Positions 14,732 through 33,133 of a DNA stretch of 64,000 nucleotides are shown piece by piece. The first letter of the stretch is position 1, and every line of letters starts with the position of its first letter. This stretch comes from Verrucomicrobiia bacterium. GTDB taxonomy: Bacteria > Verrucomicrobiota > Verrucomicrobiia > Palsa-1439. The notes under the pieces were generated by a model, which saw nothing but the letters and a program-made list of their open reading frames with translations, was not told the origin of the DNA and did not search any database. Both the position numbers and the translations under genes were made by a program. The stretch spans positions 1-64,000 of the forward strand of contig JAJVHY010000018.1 of NCBI GenBank assembly GCA_022072455.1, in the 5' to 3' direction.

Positions 14732-16294
14732 CTACGAACTACCGGTGGGCCGGCCAGGAGTTGCGACTGGCATGGCGGGGAGATTTTTCTTTTCCATCTC
14801 CTGATAGATCGGCAAATACCGGTAGTAAACCTCGAGCATCAGACAAGCTAATGCGGTGCTGTAGACTGGGCCGTAGGGATTCTTTTCACCGGGCGGATCC
14901 CAGTGACCGTCGGACGCTTGTTTGGCGACCAGAACTTTGCGCATTTCTGTATTCCATTGAGTCCAGTAGCTTCCGCCGGCCTGGAACATTGCCTGGGTGA
15001 TGTAATACCACGGGTAAAATGGAGTGCCGTGGTTGCCGGGTGGCTTGTCCCAGTCCACCTTTTTGTCCTTGTATAAGTCGAGTGATTTCTTAAGTCGCCG
15101 GTCGGCGTGGTGTCCGAGAAACTGCTGGCAAAGAATTCCGATTGCCGTCGTCGCGTAGCCATGTCCAGGATTCGAATAGCCAAAGCCACCATTCTCAGCG
15201 TGCATGTTCCAGAGATACTCGGAGGCCTTTTCAAAGGCTTCGTCAGGAACGGAAATATTGGCTAATTTTGCTGATTTCAAGCCCATGACCAACCACCCGG
15301 TAACCGATGTATCCGCATCAGCCGAAAGCGGACTGTAGCGCCAGCCGCCTTGGTCAGCGGGCTTGGTCTTTTTGACTTTTTGAGATTGGACAACGGCGTT
15401 CACCGCGCGGTCGAGGGGCTCGCGCACCAAGGGCGATTGGGTCATACCGTAGGCTTCGGCCAGAGCGAGGAGCACAGCACCTTGGGCGTACATGCTTTTG
15501 CTTTTGACAATTCCGTCGGAGCCGACAACTGTCACGAGGTAGCTGAGGGCACGGGAGACGGTCGGGCCAAACTCCTCGGAATCCGGTGTTTCTCCATGCC
15601 CGAGAAAGCATAATGTCGCGAGTGCCGAACTGGCTTCCTTGGAGTAGCCGGCCCACGAACCGTCTTTCGTTTGTTGTTCTTTCAGCCAGCGCAGGGCGGC
15701 AAGAACGGCGCGCTCCGTGTCGCCGCTACCACCACCTTGTTTGATTTTCTGCGCGCGCATTGGGCCGACCCGGTGGCCGAAACCCCCGCCGCCCGGGCCA
15801 CGCACACCGGCTGTGCCAATCTTGCCTTCGCCAAAACCCATCGTTGGGGCCGCGACTCCACCCAACCCACTGCCTTGGAGGCGGGCCACGGCCGTCGCCG
15901 AATCACTGACAACCCCAATCACTTCCTGGACTTGGCTGTCCACCGCCGTCCGATCCACCGCGCTAATACTCGCCTTGTATTCGGTGGGCGTTGTGCCGGC
16001 TGCCGTGGGAATCCCCCCGGGACCTTTGCCAGGGGTGCCGCCCCCGCCGCCGAGGGTGGGGCCACTGTATTCGAAGTCCCGCAACGCAGCGAACGGGTCC
16101 ATGTCGTCTTGGACGGGGGGGGGAGGCATTGCGCCGGAAAAGGTGGCAATGATCTTGGGGATTGCCCCGGCAATCTCAATGGTCCCGAGAATGAACAAAA
16201 TCAGCACGTGAAACATGACGGCAATGACGAAATAACGCATCAGCGTCGTCAAACTCATCAACCACGTCAGAAACTTTTTGGATGCGACCTTCAT
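14732..16294 (-). CDS. membrane-anchored alpha/alpha-toroid protein, TonB-like architecture (copy 1)
   Basis: This is a 520-aa protein. A single TM anchor (about residues 19-42) contains RYFVIAVMFHVLILFILG, with His29 placed like the conserved TM histidine of TonB; the position four before it, Ser in TonB, is Ala25. A PPPP and Gly/Pro-rich linker follows (about 55-185). Residues 190-505 form repeats of the prenyltransferase/squalene-cyclase type (LRWLKEQQTKDGSWAGY, GGWRYSP, GGFGYSNPGHGYATTA, SDGHWDPPG). The cyclase motif DxDD is replaced by DADTS, so terpene cyclisation is unlikely. It is the last gene of the ExbB-ExbD-ExbD-TPR operon. Codons 1-182 nearly duplicate those of the upstream gene. 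Confidence 0.8.
   Translation of the reverse strand: MKVASKKFLTWLMSLTTLMRYFVIAVMFHVLILFILGTIEIAGAIPKIIATFSGAMPPPPVQDDMDPFAALRDFEYSGPTLGGGGGTPGKGPGGIPTAAGTTPTEYKASISAVDRTAVDSQVQEVIGVVSDSATAVARLQGSGLGGVAAPTMGFGEGKIGTAGVRGPGGGGFGHRVGPMRAQKIKQGGGSGDTERAVLAALRWLKEQQTKDGSWAGYSKEASSALATLCFLGHGETPDSEEFGPTVSRALSYLVTVVGSDGIVKSKSMYAQGAVLLALAEAYGMTQSPLVREPLDRAVNAVVQSQKVKKTKPADQGGWRYSPLSADADTSVTGWLVMGLKSAKLANISVPDEAFEKASEYLWNMHAENGGFGYSNPGHGYATTAIGILCQQFLGHHADRRLKKSLDLYKDKKVDWDKPPGNHGTPFYPWYYITQAMFQAGGSYWTQWNTEMRKVLVAKQASDGHWDPPGEKNPYGPVYSTALACLMLEVYYRYLPIYQEMEKKNLPAMPVATPGRPTGSS
15749..16294 (-). repeat. 546-bp near-identical block, copy 1
   Basis: This is the first 182 codons of the copy 1 toroid gene. 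Aligned without gaps to 17427-17972 (offset 1678), I count five scattered single-base differences, all synonymous, plus four differences within codons 4-6. Similarity ends abruptly at 15749, beyond which the two genes diverge as ordinary paralogs. The pattern points to gene conversion or a recent partial duplication. Confidence 0.9.
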
Positions 16295-16412
16295 TTGGGC
16301 GGGTGATCCTTGTTAGCGTTGTTCATCACTAGTGCTAGAGACACTGTTCCGAAGAATTTGTTCCAACTTTTCTTGTTGGTTACGCTTGCAGATTACCGGT
16401 TTGGCGGAAAAG

Positions 16413-17972
16413 TCAGGAGCGGCTCGGTGACTGACCAGGATTTGAAACGGGCATGGCCGGGAGGCTTTTCCGCTCCATCTCTTGATAAATGGGGAGGTAG
16501 CGATAGTAAACTTCCAACATCAAACAGCAGAGGGTAGTCGAGTAAACGAGCCCGTGGCCACTCTCATTACTGCCGGCTGGCAATCCCCAACTACCGTCGG
16601 AGTTTTGGTTCTTCACCAGGGTCTCGCGCATTTGCTTGTTCCAGTGTTCCCAGTAGGAGCCGCCGCCTTGAAACATGGCTTGGGTGGCGTAGTACCAGCC
16701 GTAAAGTGTATGACCTTTGGCTGTTGGCTCTTTCCAATCCACTTTATGCTCTTTGTAGAAATCGAGCGCTTTCTTGAGGCGTTTGTCACTACCATGCCCG
16801 AGAAATTGTTGGCAGAGAATCCCCACCGCCGTGGTGGCCATTCCCCGACCGGGGCCGGCGTAGCCAAACCCACCGCTTTCCGCATACATATTCCACAAAT
16901 ATTTGCTGGCCATTTCAAATGCATCCTCCGGCACTGAGAGGCCAGCCAATTTGGCGGATTTGATCCCCATCACCAGCCAACCGGAGACGGAAACATCGGC
17001 ATCGTTGGAAGTGGGAGTGTACCGCCAGCCACCCTCGTCAGCACTGGAGGCTTTTTTAACCTTTTGTGAGAGGAGAATTGCGGCCACTGCGCGTTCCAAT
17101 GGCTCACGGACTTGCGGGGATTGCGTCATCCCGTAGGCTTCTGAGAGAGCAAGGGTCACGGCTCCTTGTGAATACATGTTCCGGCTTTTGACGATCCCTT
17201 GCGGTCCCACAACTGTCACGAGATGACTGAGGGCTTTCGAGACCGTCGGACCAAACTCGTCGGAGTCCGGTGTTTCACCGTGCCCGAGAAAACACAATGT
17301 CGCCAATGCTGAGAATGCCTCATGACCTTTCCATGAACCATTGGGACTTTGTTGTTCTTTCAGCCAGCGCAACGCCGCAAGAACGGCACGTTCAGTATCT
17401 TGGCTGCCCTTGTTTTTTGAAATCATCTGCGCGCGCATTGGGCCGACCCGGTGGCCGAAACCTCCGCCGCCCGGGCCACGCACACCGGCTGTGCCAATCT
17501 TGCCTTCGCCAAAACCCATCGTTGGGGCCGCGACTCCACCCAACCCACTGCCTTGGAGGCGGGCCACGGCCGTCGCCGAATCACTGACAACCCCAATCAC
17601 TTCCTGGACTTGGCTGTCCACCGCCGTCCGATCCACCGCGCTAATACTCGCCTTGTATTCGGTGGGCGTTGTGCCGGCTGCCGTGGGAATCCCCCCGGGA
17701 CCTTTGCCAGGGGTGCCGCCCCCGCCGCCGAGGGTGGGGCCGCTGTATTCGAAGTCCCGCAACGCGGCGAACGGGTCCATGTCGTCTTGGACGGGGGGGG
17801 GAGGCATTGCGCCGGAAAAGGTGGCAATGATCTTGGGAATTGCCCCGGCAATCTCAATGGTCCCGAGAATGAACAAAATCAGCACGTGGAACATGACGGC
17901 AATGACGAAATAACGCATCAGCGTCGTCAAACTCATCAACCACGTCAGAAACTTTTTGGAGATGACTTTCAT
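16413..17972 (-). CDS. membrane-anchored alpha/alpha-toroid protein, TonB-like architecture (copy 2)
   Basis: This is a 519-aa paralog of the following gene with the same plan: TM anchor with His29, PPPP then Gly-rich linker, and a C-terminal toroid of cyclase-like repeats (LRWLKEQQSPNGSWKG, GGWRYTP, GGFGYAGPG, SDGSWGLPAG). Its DADVS also lacks the DxDD acid motif. The C-terminal domain is clearly diverged from copy 1, while the first 182 residues differ only at residue 4. I chose ATG 17972 because it overlaps the TPR gene's stop (TGATG) and matches the copy 1 start; the frame stays open four codons further. The two proteins may present different binding faces on one common anchor. Confidence 0.8.
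   Translation of the reverse strand: MKVISKKFLTWLMSLTTLMRYFVIAVMFHVLILFILGTIEIAGAIPKIIATFSGAMPPPPVQDDMDPFAALRDFEYSGPTLGGGGGTPGKGPGGIPTAAGTTPTEYKASISAVDRTAVDSQVQEVIGVVSDSATAVARLQGSGLGGVAAPTMGFGEGKIGTAGVRGPGGGGFGHRVGPMRAQMISKNKGSQDTERAVLAALRWLKEQQSPNGSWKGHEAFSALATLCFLGHGETPDSDEFGPTVSKALSHLVTVVGPQGIVKSRNMYSQGAVTLALSEAYGMTQSPQVREPLERAVAAILLSQKVKKASSADEGGWRYTPTSNDADVSVSGWLVMGIKSAKLAGLSVPEDAFEMASKYLWNMYAESGGFGYAGPGRGMATTAVGILCQQFLGHGSDKRLKKALDFYKEHKVDWKEPTAKGHTLYGWYYATQAMFQGGGSYWEHWNKQMRETLVKNQNSDGSWGLPAGSNESGHGLVYSTTLCCLMLEVYYRYLPIYQEMERKSLPAMPVSNPGQSPSRS
17427..17972 (-). repeat. 546-bp near-identical block, copy 2
   Basis: This is the partner of 15749-16294, with no indels. It covers the TM anchor and linker of the copy 2 toroid gene and ends exactly where the two proteins begin to differ (after GPMRAQ). 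Confidence 0.9.
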
Positions 17973-20929
17973 CAGGGGGCGCAAAGTTTGCGGATTTTTT
18001 CTTTGGCCTGATCCACGAAAGCGCCAGCGGAATAGCGTTTCAGGTAGCTCTGGAAGACGGAACAGGCTTGGGCGGCATTGCCCAGTGCTTCATGGCATTC
18101 GCCGGTCCGATAAGCCGCTTCGTCCGACATCGGTCCCACTGGGGCAAACAACAGCCGCGCATAATATGCCAGCGCCGTCTTCTTGTTGTCTTTTGTTTTC
18201 ACTGGATCTGGGGACACCATGTTGAAGAAAATGTTCCCGAGTCGATGGGCGGCTTCGAACGCCGGATCGCCCTTGGAATCACGCAGCACGTTGCTGTAAA
18301 GCGGCACGGCGGCCTCGATTCGATTTTTTGCTTCGTACACTTTCGCGAGAGCCAATTCTGCATCCGACCGCGGTACATGTTGAGTATCTTTCAGTGCCTT
18401 TTCCAACGCTTCTTGGGCCGCATCGTACTGTTTCAAGCCGAGCAAGGCTTGCCCAAGGCCGACTTCCGCCAGGGTCTGCACTTTCTGGTCATTGCCGGCG
18501 GTGGCGAGCGCGGCGTCATAGCTTTCCTTGGCTTGGGCGAACTTGTCCGTTCGTAACGACACATTCCCAATCGTCAGAAAGCCCGAAGCCGGTAACTCGG
18601 ATTTGTTCGGATCAGCCAACAGGCGGACGACCAACGCATTGGCCCGGCTGATGTTTTTCTCGGTCAGGGCGATTTCCGTCATGCCGATGACACAGGCGTG
18701 GCGAATGGCGGTATTGGCGGCGTATTGTTGCGCGAGTGCTTCGAGTTTGGTGTTGGCTTCGGCTGACTGCCGGTTCTTGGTGTAGACCCGGGCGATTTGT
18801 CCGACTAACGTCCGGGCGGCAAGCGGGTCATTCGAAAACTTGCCAAGGAATTGTTCGAGATCTGCGGCCACGGTCTTTGGATCATTGCGGAGTTCAAGAA
18901 TCGCGGCGATACGGAGAACGGCGGCGACCGCCGCGTTACGGGCGTCGTCGGACAGGGTTTCTGCAGCGAGGGCGCGATTGACGATGTCCTGATACGCTGG
19001 GATGGCCTCGTCGTAGCGTTTGGTGTTTTCGAGTTCGGTGGCGATGGCGTAGAGCGCATCACCGACACGGGGGTGATTGGGATACTTCTGTACGAAGTGC
19101 CGCAGGGCTTCGACCACTTCCGCCATTTTGGGTGGTTTCATGGAGGCGTACGAGGTCGCTATCTCCCATGCTGCAAATGGGGCAAGGTCGTGGTCGGGAT
19201 ATTTTTCGACCAAAGTTTTGTAGGCGGCAATGGCGGCATCCAGGCGTTCGGCCGAAATATTATTGCGGGCGATTTGGTACCATGCCTCCGGCAACTCTGG
19301 CTGGCTGGGCCACTTCTTGATGAACTCCTCGAACATGGCGATGGCCTTGTCGTAGTTCGCGGCGTCGTACGCGCCGAGATAGCTGTAGAGATAGCCCATC
19401 CGGAACGTCACGGTTGGGATCTTGTCGTACTCCGGATATTTCGCCCGGATTTCCTCATAGGCTTTGATACCAGCCTCAAGATTGGGGCGGGCGACATTGG
19501 TGTCACCGGAACGATTGGCGATCTCATAGTGGGTTAGGCCCAAAAAGAACAATGCATCGGGACGGATTTTTGAGTCAGTCCGTTTGGTAGTGAAACCGGT
19601 GAACGCCTCCAGTGCTTTGGGAAAGTCTTCCAAGTTGAAGTGGCAGGTGGCAATCCGGAACTCAATGAGTTCGATGGTGGCTTGGTTTTTGGTGCTCTCC
19701 AAGGCCGTCACATAGCCGGCCAAGGCTTCCTTGTAGCGTAACTGCTGGAATTGCGACTCGGCCTGCATCATCTGAACGCTTTCCGTCCCCCCGGCATTCG
19801 GATACTTCTTTTTGAATTCTTCGGAGAGCTCGCCGGCTTTCTTGCTTTGGCCCCGTTGCGTAAGTGTTTGAATCAAGCCAAACCAGATCTGCTCGGCTGC
19901 CCGGTCATTCGGATACCGGTCCAGCAGATATTGGTAAACAACGCTGGATTCTTCCGGCATTTCCAGCGCCTGATAACAGTTGGCAACCCGGAACAGTGCC
20001 AGGACCCGTAAGTCAGGGCGGTCTTTGATTTGTGTCATCAGCCGGCGCACCGCATCGGTCCGGCGTTGCCAGACTTCCAAACCGAGCTGCCCCCGGACCG
20101 CGTTCAACTGGTCAATATCCCGCTGGAGGACTTCGAGTAACGCGGCCTTCGAGCGCACTCCCTTGAAATAGCCGATGGCATCCCGGAATGCCTTGTTCGC
20201 CTCTTCCGTCTTGCCCTCTCGACTTAAGGCTTCACCCCGATTGAACATCGCTTCGGCCGCCAGATAGAGCGCCTCGGTGGCGCGGGGATTGGAGCGCTGT
20301 TTGGTGATTTCCCGGTACACTTTATTGGCGCTCTGGAAATCTTTTTCCTCAGTGTAGACTTGTCCGAGCAGGAACAGCGCATCGAGTTGGACACCGGCAT
20401 TTTCGAGATATTTCTGCTGGACAATGCGAATGATGGTCTTGGCGCCGTTGGTGTTGCCGGCTTTGTAGGTCGCCCACGCTTCGCCGAGCATGGCTTGGGG
20501 GAGCATTTCGTGGGCGGGGAATTGCTGTTGGAATTTCCGATAGAGTTCCACCGCTTTGGCCGCATCCTGCATTTCCCGGTAGCACTCCGCCTGTTTCAAG
20601 AGGGCTTCCGCAACCAAAACATTCCCGGGAAAACTAGTCATCAGCCGCTGGAAGACGTTGATCGCTTCCTGATATCGGGTCTGATTGGCCCAGCACCACC
20701 CCTGGTAGTAAATCGAATCCGGGACGGCCAAACTAAACGGAAACTCTTTTTCGAACTTCTGAAACGCCGCAAGTGCTTTGGGCCAATCGCCTTCACTATA
20801 CGCAGTCTGAGCTTCCTGAAAACCGACTTGTGCGGTTCGGATTGTTGGTGGAGCCTTGGGAGCTTGCCCATAAGAAGTCAAACTCGCCAAGAACATCCCG
20901 GCGATAAGCAGGCGCAGTGTGTTGATCAT
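17972..20929 (-). CDS. exported TPR-repeat protein of the Exb-type operon
   Basis: This is a 985-aa protein with a signal peptide (MINTLRLLIAGMFLASLTSYGQ) and tetratricopeptide repeats over nearly its whole length, with units such as AQTAYSEGDWPKALAAFQKF and AIAMFEEFIKKWPSQPELPEAWYQIA. TPR solenoids bind partner proteins; in Tol-Pal systems the TPR protein CpoB/YbgF plays a periplasmic coordinating role, and a similar role is inferred here. I chose ATG 20929, which overlaps the upstream ExbD stop (ATGA); a longer frame exists but lies inside exbD. Its stop overlaps the first toroid gene. The size, several times that of CpoB, is unusual. Confidence 0.85.
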   Translation of the reverse strand: MINTLRLLIAGMFLASLTSYGQAPKAPPTIRTAQVGFQEAQTAYSEGDWPKALAAFQKFEKEFPFSLAVPDSIYYQGWCWANQTRYQEAINVFQRLMTSFPGNVLVAEALLKQAECYREMQDAAKAVELYRKFQQQFPAHEMLPQAMLGEAWATYKAGNTNGAKTIIRIVQQKYLENAGVQLDALFLLGQVYTEEKDFQSANKVYREITKQRSNPRATEALYLAAEAMFNRGEALSREGKTEEANKAFRDAIGYFKGVRSKAALLEVLQRDIDQLNAVRGQLGLEVWQRRTDAVRRLMTQIKDRPDLRVLALFRVANCYQALEMPEESSVVYQYLLDRYPNDRAAEQIWFGLIQTLTQRGQSKKAGELSEEFKKKYPNAGGTESVQMMQAESQFQQLRYKEALAGYVTALESTKNQATIELIEFRIATCHFNLEDFPKALEAFTGFTTKRTDSKIRPDALFFLGLTHYEIANRSGDTNVARPNLEAGIKAYEEIRAKYPEYDKIPTVTFRMGYLYSYLGAYDAANYDKAIAMFEEFIKKWPSQPELPEAWYQIARNNISAERLDAAIAAYKTLVEKYPDHDLAPFAAWEIATSYASMKPPKMAEVVEALRHFVQKYPNHPRVGDALYAIATELENTKRYDEAIPAYQDIVNRALAAETLSDDARNAAVAAVLRIAAILELRNDPKTVAADLEQFLGKFSNDPLAARTLVGQIARVYTKNRQSAEANTKLEALAQQYAANTAIRHACVIGMTEIALTEKNISRANALVVRLLADPNKSELPASGFLTIGNVSLRTDKFAQAKESYDAALATAGNDQKVQTLAEVGLGQALLGLKQYDAAQEALEKALKDTQHVPRSDAELALAKVYEAKNRIEAAVPLYSNVLRDSKGDPAFEAAHRLGNIFFNMVSPDPVKTKDNKKTALAYYARLLFAPVGPMSDEAAYRTGECHEALGNAAQACSVFQSYLKRYSAGAFVDQAKEKIRKLCAP

Positions 20930-21375
20930 GGGTTGGCCGCCGCTGGTGCCGCAGCCGCCACATCCGCCAATGGACGGAAGGCCACGTTGGTCAGATTTGC
21001 TTGGGCACAAGCGTCGAGTGCCGAAATCACCGCCTGATAGGAAGTCTCGGGGTCAGCCTCGATGACGATCGTCGCTTCCTGGCCGATCGAAGCGAGCTGT
21101 CGCATGGCATCGGTCAAGGTGAAGCTGTCATACCCGGGGGCGCCATTGACCGAGATATCATTCGTACTGCGGACGTGGATGTTGAGATCAAGCGGAACTT
21201 TCGTCGGTGCCACTGCGCTGGCTTTGGCAACGAGCGGCAGCCGAGAGTCCAAACGCTTTTCAACGGCGCTGAACGAGGAGAATGACATGTAGAAAATGAG
21301 CAGAATCAAAATTGTGTCGATCATCGGGATGATCTCGACGCGCCCGCGTTTCACGTTCCGGCGGGCGAGTTTCAC
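20926..21375 (-). CDS. exbD: ExbD/TolR-family protein (second of a pair)
   Basis: This 149-aa proton-channel subunit has a short cytoplasmic basic start (MKLARRNVKRGRVEI), one TM helix with the essential Asp in IPMIDTILILLIFYM, and a periplasmic domain of about 100 residues ending in an Ala/Pro-rich tail. It overlaps the preceding ExbD by ATGA and the TPR gene by ATGA. The first 30 residues almost match the neighbouring ExbD, but the periplasmic domains differ strongly, so the two probably form a heteromer with separate periplasmic contacts. Confidence 0.9.
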   Translation of the reverse strand: MKLARRNVKRGRVEIIPMIDTILILLIFYMSFSSFSAVEKRLDSRLPLVAKASAVAPTKVPLDLNIHVRSTNDISVNGAPGYDSFTLTDAMRQLASIGQEATIVIEADPETSYQAVISALDACAQANLTNVAFRPLADVAAAAPAAANP

Positions 21376-21794
21376 TTCACTTCCTCAGTGGTGAAGGTAA
21401 TGTTGGCCAGGCGGGCTTTCGCGCAGGCTTTCATGAAGGCGCTCAAATCGGCGTAAGTCATATTGCGGTCGCCGCGGAGCACGACCAGCATGTCAGCATA
21501 CCGGGGGTCGCTCATCCGGATGGCATTCAGCTCGCCGGGCAATTCCTCGATGGGGATTGTCCGCTTGTTCAGAATGATCTTGTCCTTGCTGAACATGTTG
21601 AGCACGACTTTGGCCGGACCACCTTCCTTGTCATCAAGACCGGCTTTCGATTTCGGGAGTCGGAGACTGGCTTCTTTGGAGGCTTCGGCGAACCGCGAAA
21701 ACGTCATGTAGAAAATCAACAAGATCACAATCGTGTCGATCATCGGAATGATCTCCACGCGTCCGCGTTTAATCTTGCGCCGCTTCAGCTTCAT
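21372..21794 (-). CDS. exbD: ExbD/TolR-family protein (first of a pair)
   Basis: This 140-aa ExbD-like subunit has the channel Asp in IPMIDTIVILLIFYM, followed by a periplasmic domain (residues 45-135). It lies 10 bp after the ExbB-like gene and overlaps the second ExbD by ATGA. In the known motors, ExbD/TolR works with a pentameric ExbB/TolQ ring to convert proton flow into movement of a TonB or TolA partner. Here the downstream partners are a TPR protein and two toroid proteins. Confidence 0.9.
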   Translation of the reverse strand: MKLKRRKIKRGRVEIIPMIDTIVILLIFYMTFSRFAEASKEASLRLPKSKAGLDDKEGGPAKVVLNMFSKDKIILNKRTIPIEELPGELNAIRMSDPRYADMLVVLRGDRNMTYADLSAFMKACAKARLANITFTTEEVK

Positions 21795-21804
21795 GGCTGA
21801 CGCT

Positions 21805-22566
21805 TTATCCCTCGTGCGATTGTTTGATGAGCACCATGATCTCGCTGAGGCCTTTTTCCAAGTCCATCAGGATCTGCTCTTTCTGAGCTGTCAAGTAATT
21901 ATACGCGAGAAGGGAGGGCAACGCAACGCCAAGGCCGGCTGCCGTATTAATCAGCGCCTCGGAAATACCGCCAGCCAGCGCGGCCGGATCGCTCATGCCT
22001 TTTTGCGAGACGATGGCAAAGGAACGAATCATGCCGATTGTCGTTCCCAACAAACCCGCCAGTGGACACATCGTGACCATCGAATCCAACATCGGTAGCA
22101 ATTTTTCCAAGCCGATCAATTCCCGCGTGACTTCACCTTGCACAAGCTGCTCGACGTGTTCGGGGTGGTACCCATCGCGGGCGGCCGACAAGGCCACCCG
22201 GAAAACACGCCCGGCCATCCCCGGTTCAGTTTCGATGGCTGTCAAGGCATCGGAAAAGGAACTACTGGCTTTGACTTTATCAATGATGCCCTGGGTATTG
22301 CCTTGGCATTTCCGGTAATAGAAGAAGCGTTCAGGGATGATCGTGAAGGTGAAGATCGAGGCCGCCACCAGGAAGAAGAACACGTACGGCGGAGTAATCG
22401 CCACCTCCCAAACCATTTCCAAGGCTGTCTTGCCGCCATGCGCTTCCGCCGCCGCCGCCGGCGCCTCGCCGCCGGCCTCCTGAGCGGAGACCGACACCCC
22501 CGCCGCCAAAACGGCGAAGCACAGAGCCAAGACAATGCGACGGATACGACGTGATATCAGATGCAT
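21805..22566 (-). CDS. exbB: ExbB/TolQ/MotA-family proton channel protein
   Basis: This 253-aa protein has a cleavable-looking signal peptide (MHLISRRIRR then a hydrophobic stretch to VSAQ), a short Ala/Glu-rich periplasmic segment, and three TM helices. The conserved TM2/TM3 motifs are CPLAGLLGTTIGMIRSF and ALINTAAGLGVALPSLLAYNYL. I chose ATG 22566 because GGAG lies 7 bases upstream; the frame is open 12 codons further. It opens the motor operon and lies 95 bp after pnp on the same strand. Confidence 0.92.
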   Translation of the reverse strand: MHLISRRIRRIVLALCFAVLAAGVSVSAQEAGGEAPAAAAEAHGGKTALEMVWEVAITPPYVFFFLVAASIFTFTIIPERFFYYRKCQGNTQGIIDKVKASSSFSDALTAIETEPGMAGRVFRVALSAARDGYHPEHVEQLVQGEVTRELIGLEKLLPMLDSMVTMCPLAGLLGTTIGMIRSFAIVSQKGMSDPAALAGGISEALINTAAGLGVALPSLLAYNYLTAQKEQILMDLEKGLSEIMVLIKQSHEG

Positions 22567-22661
22567 ACTATTCTCCATAATTGAAATCCCCATCATCAGC
22601 ATCGACGACGGGCTTGCTTATACTGGTTGGCTGCGAACATGGCAACCAAACTTTCCATTCC

Positions 22662-31495: not shown

Positions 31496-33133
31496 TTATT
31501 TGCTGGCGGCGCGTCGGGCGGCGTCGAGTTGTTGCTGGAGGACAGTGTTCTGTCGGGTGAGTTCTTCAACACGAAGCGTGGCTTGCTCCGCGCGGAGATT
31601 GTTGACGCGCGCTTCCTCCAGTTGGGCTTTCAGTTGGGCGATCTCCGTGGCTTCGCCGATGCTTTGCGGGCGGACAAAGGCGCTGCGTTTCGTCTCGTCG
31701 ACCTGCTTGGATAAGAGTTTGTTCTTTTCCGCCAAGTCGGCCAGGGAGCGGGTGAGGATGGCAACTTGATCTTTTTCTGCGGTCAATTCAGCCGACAACT
31801 GTGCCGCCCGTTTTTCGGCAGCTTCAAGTTGTGCGACCGATTGCCGGGAAGCCGCCAGGTCAGCTTGGGCGGCGGCCAGTTGTTTGCGGAGGTCGTCAAT
31901 TTCTTTGGGATTCGGCGTCTGCGCGACTCTCTTTTCGAGATCGGCAACCCGGTCATTCGCGGCGGCTAGTTTGCTGTTCAGTTCCCGATTCTGCTTCGTC
32001 AGGTCCTCGGTTTTGGCGGCCGTTTGTTTGCTGGCATCGGCCTGTTTTTCCAACTCTTTGACGCGTTGTTCGGAGTTGGCAAGTTTGCCTTGCAGGTTTT
32101 GTATTTCGCGAGTGGACGCTTTTTGCGCGGACTCGGACTCATTCTGAGTCTTCGCTGTTGCTGCTTTGGCCTCGGTCAGTTCGGCGCGGAGTTTCTTCAG
32201 TTCTGCTTGATCAGCCGGGTTGCTGGCCGGTTTGGCAGCAAGTTGTTTTTCCAAGTTTTTGGTCTGGTCGTTCAGTGCCGTGAGTCGGGCTTGGAGGTCG
32301 GCGTTTTCCTTGGTGACTTGTTCGAGCTTGGCATTTGTCTGCTTGGCTGCGGCAGTACCGGCTTTGGCCTCGGCCAACTCGGCCCGGAGTTTCTTCAGTT
32401 CTGCTTGGTCGGCTGGGTTACTGGCCGGTTTGGCGGCAAGTTGTTTTTCCAGGTTCTTGGTCTGGTCGTTCGCCGTCGCCAGCCGGGCTTTAAGGTCAGA
32501 ATTATCTTTGGTCAGTTGATCGATTTTGGCGTTGGCTTGCTTGGCGGCGGAGGCGCTGGCGGCGGCTTGGCTCTCCAATTCTTTGACCCGGGCGTTTTCC
32601 TTGGCAATGGCTTTTTGGCCGGCCTCGGCTTGAGCTTTGACTGCGGCGAGCTCGGTTTGGAGCTTTTTCAATTCGCCGGTATCGGCGGTCGGCGCGGCTG
32701 GTTTGGCGGCGAGTTGTTTTTCCAATTCTCTGATCCGCACGTTGGAGCTGGCCACCTTGGCTTCAAGTTCCTTGGCTTGTTTGGCGGATTGTTCCGCCTG
32801 CGCGGTGGCCTTTTTCGCAGCGGCCGATTCGGTTTTGGCTTTGTCGGATTCGAGCCGGGATTTCTTATCAGCTTCCGCGAGTTGGGCTTTGAGCTCCGCG
32901 GATTGCTTTTGGAGGGCGGTCAGTTCGGCTTGCCCGCTGGGGGCATTGCGTTGGGCAATCGCCAATTTGTCGGTGAGGGTTTTGTTTTGTCGCTGGAGTT
33001 CGGCGATTAACGCCTGATCGGCTTTGCGGGCGTTTTCCAAGTCGGCGATGTTTTTTACCGGCTCGGCAGCCGGAGTGAGCGGTGCGAGGACAACAAGGGT
33101 CAGCAACAACACGACATGATGCATGATTCGCAT
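31496..33133 (-). CDS. exported coiled-coil protein with tandem repeats (545 aa)
   Basis: A signal peptide (MRIMHHVVLLLTLVVLAPLTPA) is followed by an almost continuous coiled coil rich in Ala, Lys, Gln and Glu to the C-terminus. A 66-residue unit (ADQAELKKLRAELTEAKA, then KEN..LQARL, then LEKQLAAKPASNP) is tandemly repeated, matching a 198-bp DNA repeat. AAGGA upstream supports ATG 33133. It follows the 1006-aa coiled-coil gene by 13 bp and shares its C-terminal style (EATEIAQLKAQLEEARVNNLRAEQ), so the two are paralogs. A structural or tethering periplasmic role is inferred. Confidence 0.8.
   Translation of the reverse strand: MRIMHHVVLLLTLVVLAPLTPAAEPVKNIADLENARKADQALIAELQRQNKTLTDKLAIAQRNAPSGQAELTALQKQSAELKAQLAEADKKSRLESDKAKTESAAAKKATAQAEQSAKQAKELEAKVASSNVRIRELEKQLAAKPAAPTADTGELKKLQTELAAVKAQAEAGQKAIAKENARVKELESQAAASASAAKQANAKIDQLTKDNSDLKARLATANDQTKNLEKQLAAKPASNPADQAELKKLRAELAEAKAGTAAAKQTNAKLEQVTKENADLQARLTALNDQTKNLEKQLAAKPASNPADQAELKKLRAELTEAKAATAKTQNESESAQKASTREIQNLQGKLANSEQRVKELEKQADASKQTAAKTEDLTKQNRELNSKLAAANDRVADLEKRVAQTPNPKEIDDLRKQLAAAQADLAASRQSVAQLEAAEKRAAQLSAELTAEKDQVAILTRSLADLAEKNKLLSKQVDETKRSAFVRPQSIGEATEIAQLKAQLEEARVNNLRAEQATLRVEELTRQNTVLQQQLDAARRAASK
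32161..32556 (-). repeat. 198-bp tandem repeat, two units
   Basis: Units 32161-32358 and 32359-32556 align at a 198-bp offset (for example GGCCGGTTTGGC at 32225 and 32423). The length keeps the frame and the heptad register of the encoded coiled coil, so unit number could change without breaking the protein. Confidence 0.8.

Follow-up and report, generated by a model that had tools for sequence, protein, structure and literature searches.

The question raised by this locus is how two adjacent genes can share their first 182 codons almost exactly and then diverge abruptly. The genes, SQ_A (positions 14732-16294) and SQ_B (16413-17972), are open reading frames on the minus strand of the window, by which we mean the whole 64,000-nucleotide stretch of Verrucomicrobiia DNA that was analyzed. 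Codon alignment of codons 1-182 (15749-16294 in SQ_A and 17427-17972 in SQ_B) finds 9 differing bases out of 546 (98.4% nucleotide identity) and a single changed residue. Codon 2 differs at one base, codon 4 at three (Ala/Ile, the sole residue change), and codons 28, 45, 69, 77, and 170 by one synonymous change each, so that the earlier note's count of about nine differences, five of them synonymous and beyond codon 6, is exact. The likeness breaks off at codons 182/183, as the same note had described. From codon 183 onward, 334 of 1,005 bases and 97 of 335 aligned residues differ, which leaves the toroid halves 66.8% identical in nucleotides and 71.0% in amino acids. At the other end, identity begins at about codon 5, and the DNA upstream of each gene is unrelated: the start of SQ_B is the end of a TPR gene, while SQ_A is preceded by its own 118-bp intergenic stretch (16295-16412, minus strand), which does not resemble the sequence before SQ_B. 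The homogenized tract, delimited by this mutual identity, covers approximately 17427-17960 in SQ_B and 15749-16282 in SQ_A.

The longest identical run between the two genes is 278 bases, compared with a maximum of 50 in 5,000 permutations of the sites. Where both genes encode the same residue (Met and Trp excluded), the codons used are different at 6 of 172 positions in the first half and at 125 of 219 in the second (Fisher's exact test, P = 3.9e-33). Together, these results dismiss a chance origin of the first-half identity. The NG86 estimate of dS is 0.052 in codons 1-182 and saturated from codon 183. Silent-site identity ending at a sharp boundary, one mark of domain-limited concerted evolution by gene conversion, is what the SQ_A/SQ_B pair displays.

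The first half could in principle be alike through purifying selection alone, and a histidine of its helix (His29) is indeed conserved. We regard this explanation as scarcely credible, since the silent sites are alike too (the 6 of 172 same-residue codons above) and divergence between orthologs is as large in the first half as in the second. Compared with the single-copy ortholog in a genome of the same genus (G001), SQ_B retains 57.7% amino acid identity in the first half and 58.4% in the second. Since the two halves ordinarily diverge to a similar extent, recent copying is required to account for the 98.4% nucleotide identity in codons 1-182.

The neighborhood and the domain architecture suggest what is being copied. 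On the minus strand, the gene order runs from an ExbB/TolQ-like proton channel gene (21805-22602; PF01618, 104.9 bits) through two ExbD/TolR-like genes (21372-21794, PF02472, 69.1 bits; 20926-21375, PF02472, 69 bits) and the TPR protein gene (17972-21010; Pfam TPR_6, 184 bits; tol_pal_ybgF, 224 bits) to SQ_B and SQ_A. The best NCBIfam models for the channel gene and the first ExbD-like gene are TolQ and TolR, both below their cut-offs. The ExbB-ExbD-ExbD-TPR order is common to the window's family, and adjacency to ExbB/ExbD-type motor genes is a mark of TonB/TolA-like transducers. Codons 1-182 encode a predicted transmembrane helix (residues 2-38) and a Pro/Gly-rich disordered linker; the structure model returns the same helix, pLDDT below 50 for residues 37-181, and mostly 80 to 95 for the toroid. 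The alpha/alpha toroid domain itself occupies codons 183-520 of SQ_A (14732-15748, minus strand; SQHop_cyclase_C, 26.2 bits, cut-off 26.1) and codons 183-519 of SQ_B (16413-17426, minus strand; 25.1 bits, just under that cut-off), with toroid folds as its relatives in the PDB. Its likeness to squalene-hopene cyclases, GH76 mannanases, and alpha2-macroglobulin is one of fold only, with a cyclase as the nearest PDB structure in fold (TMq 0.39). The two proteins score far short of the full-length squalene-hopene cyclase families, with 12.4 and 19.5 bits against TIGR01507 (cut-off 431.1) and 22.6 and 24.3 bits against TIGR01787 (cut-off 322.7). Neither has a Pfam match to a TonB/TolA C-terminal domain; the toroid fold stands there instead.

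His29 is invariant in all 10 family proteins. The S-H-L-S motif of Escherichia coli TonB is spaced S-x3-H-x6-L-x3-S; SQ_A and SQ_B match it in L at +7 from His29 and depart from it at -4 (A) and +11 (E). Outside the family (loci L061 to L064, which belong to it, were left out of this count), 36 toroid genes carry a His in or beside the most hydrophobic stretch; S occupies -4 in 28 of these, and L occupies +7 in 19. Against expectation, the histidine was found at 12 of 31 helix-bearing GTDB loci with an ExbB/ExbD match and at 23 of 34 without one, a comparison over 68 of 80 loci (12 truncated loci were left out) that is weak either way, given short flanks, the window's ExbB/ExbD as the only query, and helix calls limited to the one most hydrophobic stretch. 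At toroid loci from other families, an ExbB/ExbD match was found in 0 of 21. The S-H-L-S motif is named for TonB/TolA in a study of PVC-group transducers with vWA domains, in which a tolQ-like gene, two tolR-like genes, and a TPR gene precede the transducer (PMC12204202). The gene order before SQ_B is the same, whereas the C-terminal domain of the SQ proteins is an alpha/alpha toroid, unlike that of the vWA transducers (PMC12204202); the words squalene, toroid, terpene, and prenyltransferase do not occur in the main text of that article. Because of the histidine pattern and this shared gene order, SQ_A and SQ_B may well work as TonB-type transducers with a toroid tip while not being members of the TonB family. 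The earlier note's description of the first half as motor-facing is backed, as a predicted role, by the gene order, the domains, and the TonB/TolA-like histidine pattern.

The sample of the window's family comprised 11 genomes, the window's included. Five of them (G001, G003, G004, G009, and G010) have a single such gene between the TPR gene and a ferredoxin gene; G002 and G008 have two toroid genes each, in separate places on different contigs; contig ends interrupt the gene of G006; the single gene of G007 lies away from its TPR gene; and no toroid gene was found in G005, which is 53% complete. The G007 gene (L052, 8225-9406) lies beside a long open reading frame instead of a TPR gene, presumably for a glucose-6-phosphate isomerase, judging from its translation. 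At the contig start of G002 (L049, 1-90), the anchor coding sequence shows a short tandem repetition, which may be an artifact of the assembly ending in a repeat. The toroid of G001 is equidistant from the two toroids of the window (58.4% and 58.3%), and a toroid tree groups SQ_A, SQ_B, and G001 while leaving the order among them unresolved. Since G001 has one gene, equally far from both toroids, the duplication that gave rise to SQ_A and SQ_B is probably younger than the split from G001. In a comparison of the two halves that used 12 of 14 rows (two pieces from G006 were left out), the first genes of G008 and G002 were 68 to 69% identical to the window's in the first half and 51 to 53% in the second; G003 showed the reverse (43% and 51%). 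The first halves of G008 and G002 sort by copy, on a long branch (0.79), as expected where homogenization is absent.

No second tandem pair was found in the 10 other genomes of the family, so that a single recent event would be enough there. Such an event without any ongoing process, either one overwrite of a first half or the duplication of a new anchor onto an old toroid, is a real possibility, if on the unlikely side. The window is one snapshot, and its 9 differences fit one event followed by brief drift. However, four of the five later differences fall within codons 28-77 and are followed by the 278-base identical run, a clustering that fits overlapping tracts of different age, although five sites are few. 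A further argument against a single event comes from repeated homogenization in another genus of the same class.

This genus, g9, has tandem toroid genes; 9 of its 59 genomes matched at 1e-60, and four (G043, G051, G072, and G091) carry full copies 1 and 2, with a first half of 164 codons. Within these genomes, the first halves of copies 1 and 2 are 94.7, 93.7, 98.2, and 95.3% identical, respectively, compared with 91.9 and 91.7% for the orthologs of G043 and G072 and 86.2 and 88.2% for those of G043 and G091. Silent sites agree, with first-half dS of 0.060 to 0.217 between copies within genomes and 0.337 to 0.603 between orthologs of G043 and those of G072 and G091. Paralogs are closer than orthologs in this region only: in the second half, copies 1 and 2 are 75 to 77% identical, orthologs in the same two genome pairs 85 to 92%, and dS is ortholog-like. 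Approximately unbiased (AU) tests were run on 8 genes plus an outgroup (9 of 21 g9 sequences), leaving out the partial or frameshifted G027_2a, G106_1p, and G101_xp, the remaining copy-3 genes, and genomes lacking either full copy. For the first half, the tree by copy was rejected (P = 9.4e-8), and the best tree groups genes by species clade (P = 0.999); for the second half, the tree by copy has P = 1, and the tree by species was rejected (P = 4.3e-35). Because a strict by-genome tree of the first half has P = 7.6e-4, no clear exchange has taken place since G043 and G051 parted. The best-supported reading of these alignments is that the homogenization of neighboring g9 toroid genes came after species separation. 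A comparison of this kind, in search of concerted evolution, had been asked for by the earlier note, and in g9 it shows grouping by species for the first half and by copy for the second. The note's proposal that the first half underwent gene conversion is supported in the window by silent sites and the G001 comparison and, across species, by g9.

Other parts of the earlier proposal need qualification. Its claim that the outer domain diversifies is correct as regards divergence, but that divergence is ordinary and under purifying selection (dN of 0.24 with saturated dS between the SQ_A and SQ_B toroids; dN of 0.20 to 0.24 and dS of 0.52 to 0.62 between g9 paralogs). Likewise, conversion "holding constant" the first half, taken as selection, stands only in part. 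The first half of g9 copy 3 is only 67% identical to that of copy 1, so a constant anchor is not required, and conversion touches toroids as well. The toroids of G043 are 81.5% identical between copies 3 and 1 and 76.9% between copies 2 and 1; copy 1 in g9 combines a copy-2-like anchor with a copy-3-like toroid, and in G106, copies 2 and 3 are identical across several comparison windows inside the toroid. From this mosaic and the G106 identity, conversion is modular and reaches beyond the anchor. In two g9 loci, a toroid gene is split into two frames (copy 2 in L170 of G027 and copy 3 in L183 of G091), and genes of the array seem to decay individually.

Beyond g9, another family (f4) was considered as a second replicate and set aside, as both of its halves fit grouping by genome (AU P = 0.217 for forced pairs in the second half) and it does not discriminate. 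First-half dS in f4 is 0.189 to 0.309 within genomes and 0.475 to 0.781 between them (G052z set aside). The two f4 genes of G028 lie on different contigs with first halves still 93.3% alike, which suggests that adjacency may not be needed. Nine of 14 targets were profiled; the others were L083, L107, and L123, whose frames overlap within a single region, and L133 and L176, which gave no nucleotide match. Among 11 targets with separate neighboring toroid genes, L110 has the reverse pattern, and L125, L133, and L176 have none; in the toroid gene pairs L072 and L173, likeness is about uniform along the length. At L110 (4307-7979), the first part of the pair is diverged and the toroid part is 63 to 88% alike. 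Elsewhere in the window (32154-32549), two tandem 198-base units, 80% alike, sit in a 545-amino-acid, Lys/Ala/Glu-rich, coiled-coil-like open reading frame on the minus strand.

Near-identical repeats in a metagenome assembly may also arise by repeat collapse or chimeric joining. The window's genome is in 36 contigs, and contigs of G002, G006, G101, and G106 end inside a toroid gene, as contigs do at repeats. Nevertheless, two intact genes with five spaced differences lie within one 88-kb contig, and the pattern recurs in G027, a single-contig genome; we consider such an artifact very unlikely.

The earlier note had also suggested that the repeat could recombine and fuse the two genes, and one species of g9 lends this support by analogy. 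Its genome, G035, has a single gene, of which the 140 bases upstream align with G072 copy 1 (78.5%, z = 12.0) and not with copy 2 (z = -0.4), the body matches copy 2 (91.6%), and the downstream sequence aligns with copy 3 (83.2%, z = 12.8), as expected of such a fusion. In the tree, the G035 toroid sits beside that of G072 copy 2 (98.7/98). The likeliest history is therefore an array that later shrank in G035 through loss of copies, its first junction falling within the anchor that the copies share. By analogy, fusion through the repeats in the window would be supported too, plausibly as a rare evolutionary loss and not a switch. A programmed cassette switch, in which different toroids would in turn be joined to a single expressed anchor, takes up a further suggestion of the note and is permitted by the direct repeats of the anchor and recalls the fused gene of G035. 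It went unsupported: each of the two genes in the window is intact and has a start of its own, the window holds no inverted repeat pairs of at least 60 bases, and G035 looks like a deletion, with no silent copies seen. We judge it highly improbable.

The mammalian tandem paralogs TLR1 and TLR6 are one close comparison. In nine species, gene conversion has acted independently to keep their transmembrane and signaling region alike, whereas orthologs are the closer pairs in the other region; coevolution with shared partners was proposed (PMC2077338). The SQ pair shares the tandem arrangement and the homogenized transmembrane-containing region; an ortholog-like remainder is seen in g9. It differs in being bacterial, with anchors on the N-terminal side and toroids, whereas the homogenized region of these mammalian receptors lies toward the C terminus (PMC2077338); selection by shared partners would be a candidate explanation for the SQ pair. 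The PE_PGRS pair of tubercle bacilli is, like the SQ pair, a pair of duplicated bacterial genes, but of another protein family; the study of its rearrangement uses the term "gene conversion" 17 times (PMC1762029). In the open-licence literature searched, we found no description of toroid-tipped transducers or of conversion of their anchors.

We favor, with considerable confidence, a history of tandem duplication, toroid drift, and gene conversion of the anchor after the split from G001, in genes that we infer to encode transducers sharing a motor. One gene with anchor, linker, and toroid would have been duplicated in tandem in an old event that still followed that split, and its toroids would have drifted to 71% amino acid identity. 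Homologous recombination that left the flanks unexchanged would then have remade codons from about 5 to 182 near-identical, on at least one recent occasion. As TonB/TolA-like force transducers, SQ_A and SQ_B would insert anchors of one kind into a single ExbB/ExbD-type proton motor and present different toroids in the periplasm. Conversion spanning the toroids would be lost, either because it would erase their difference or because their divergence stops it, while conversion spanning the anchor would be harmless or favored; the first half may be preserved by selection for motor coupling. The direct repeats would allow occasional fusion and loss of copies. More tentatively, one motor may serve several toroid-tipped transducers, one socket for several heads, with recurrent conversion keeping the plug interchangeable and the repeats letting lineages, in the course of evolution, drop or fuse toroids or re-pair them with anchors; we offer this as speculation and regard it as doubtful.

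Concerted evolution limited to one domain is a known process; here it acts on the apparent motor plug of toroid-tipped force transducers. Should the need to fit one motor be what keeps the plug alike, the boundary of the tract would mark where coupling to the motor ends and specificity begins.
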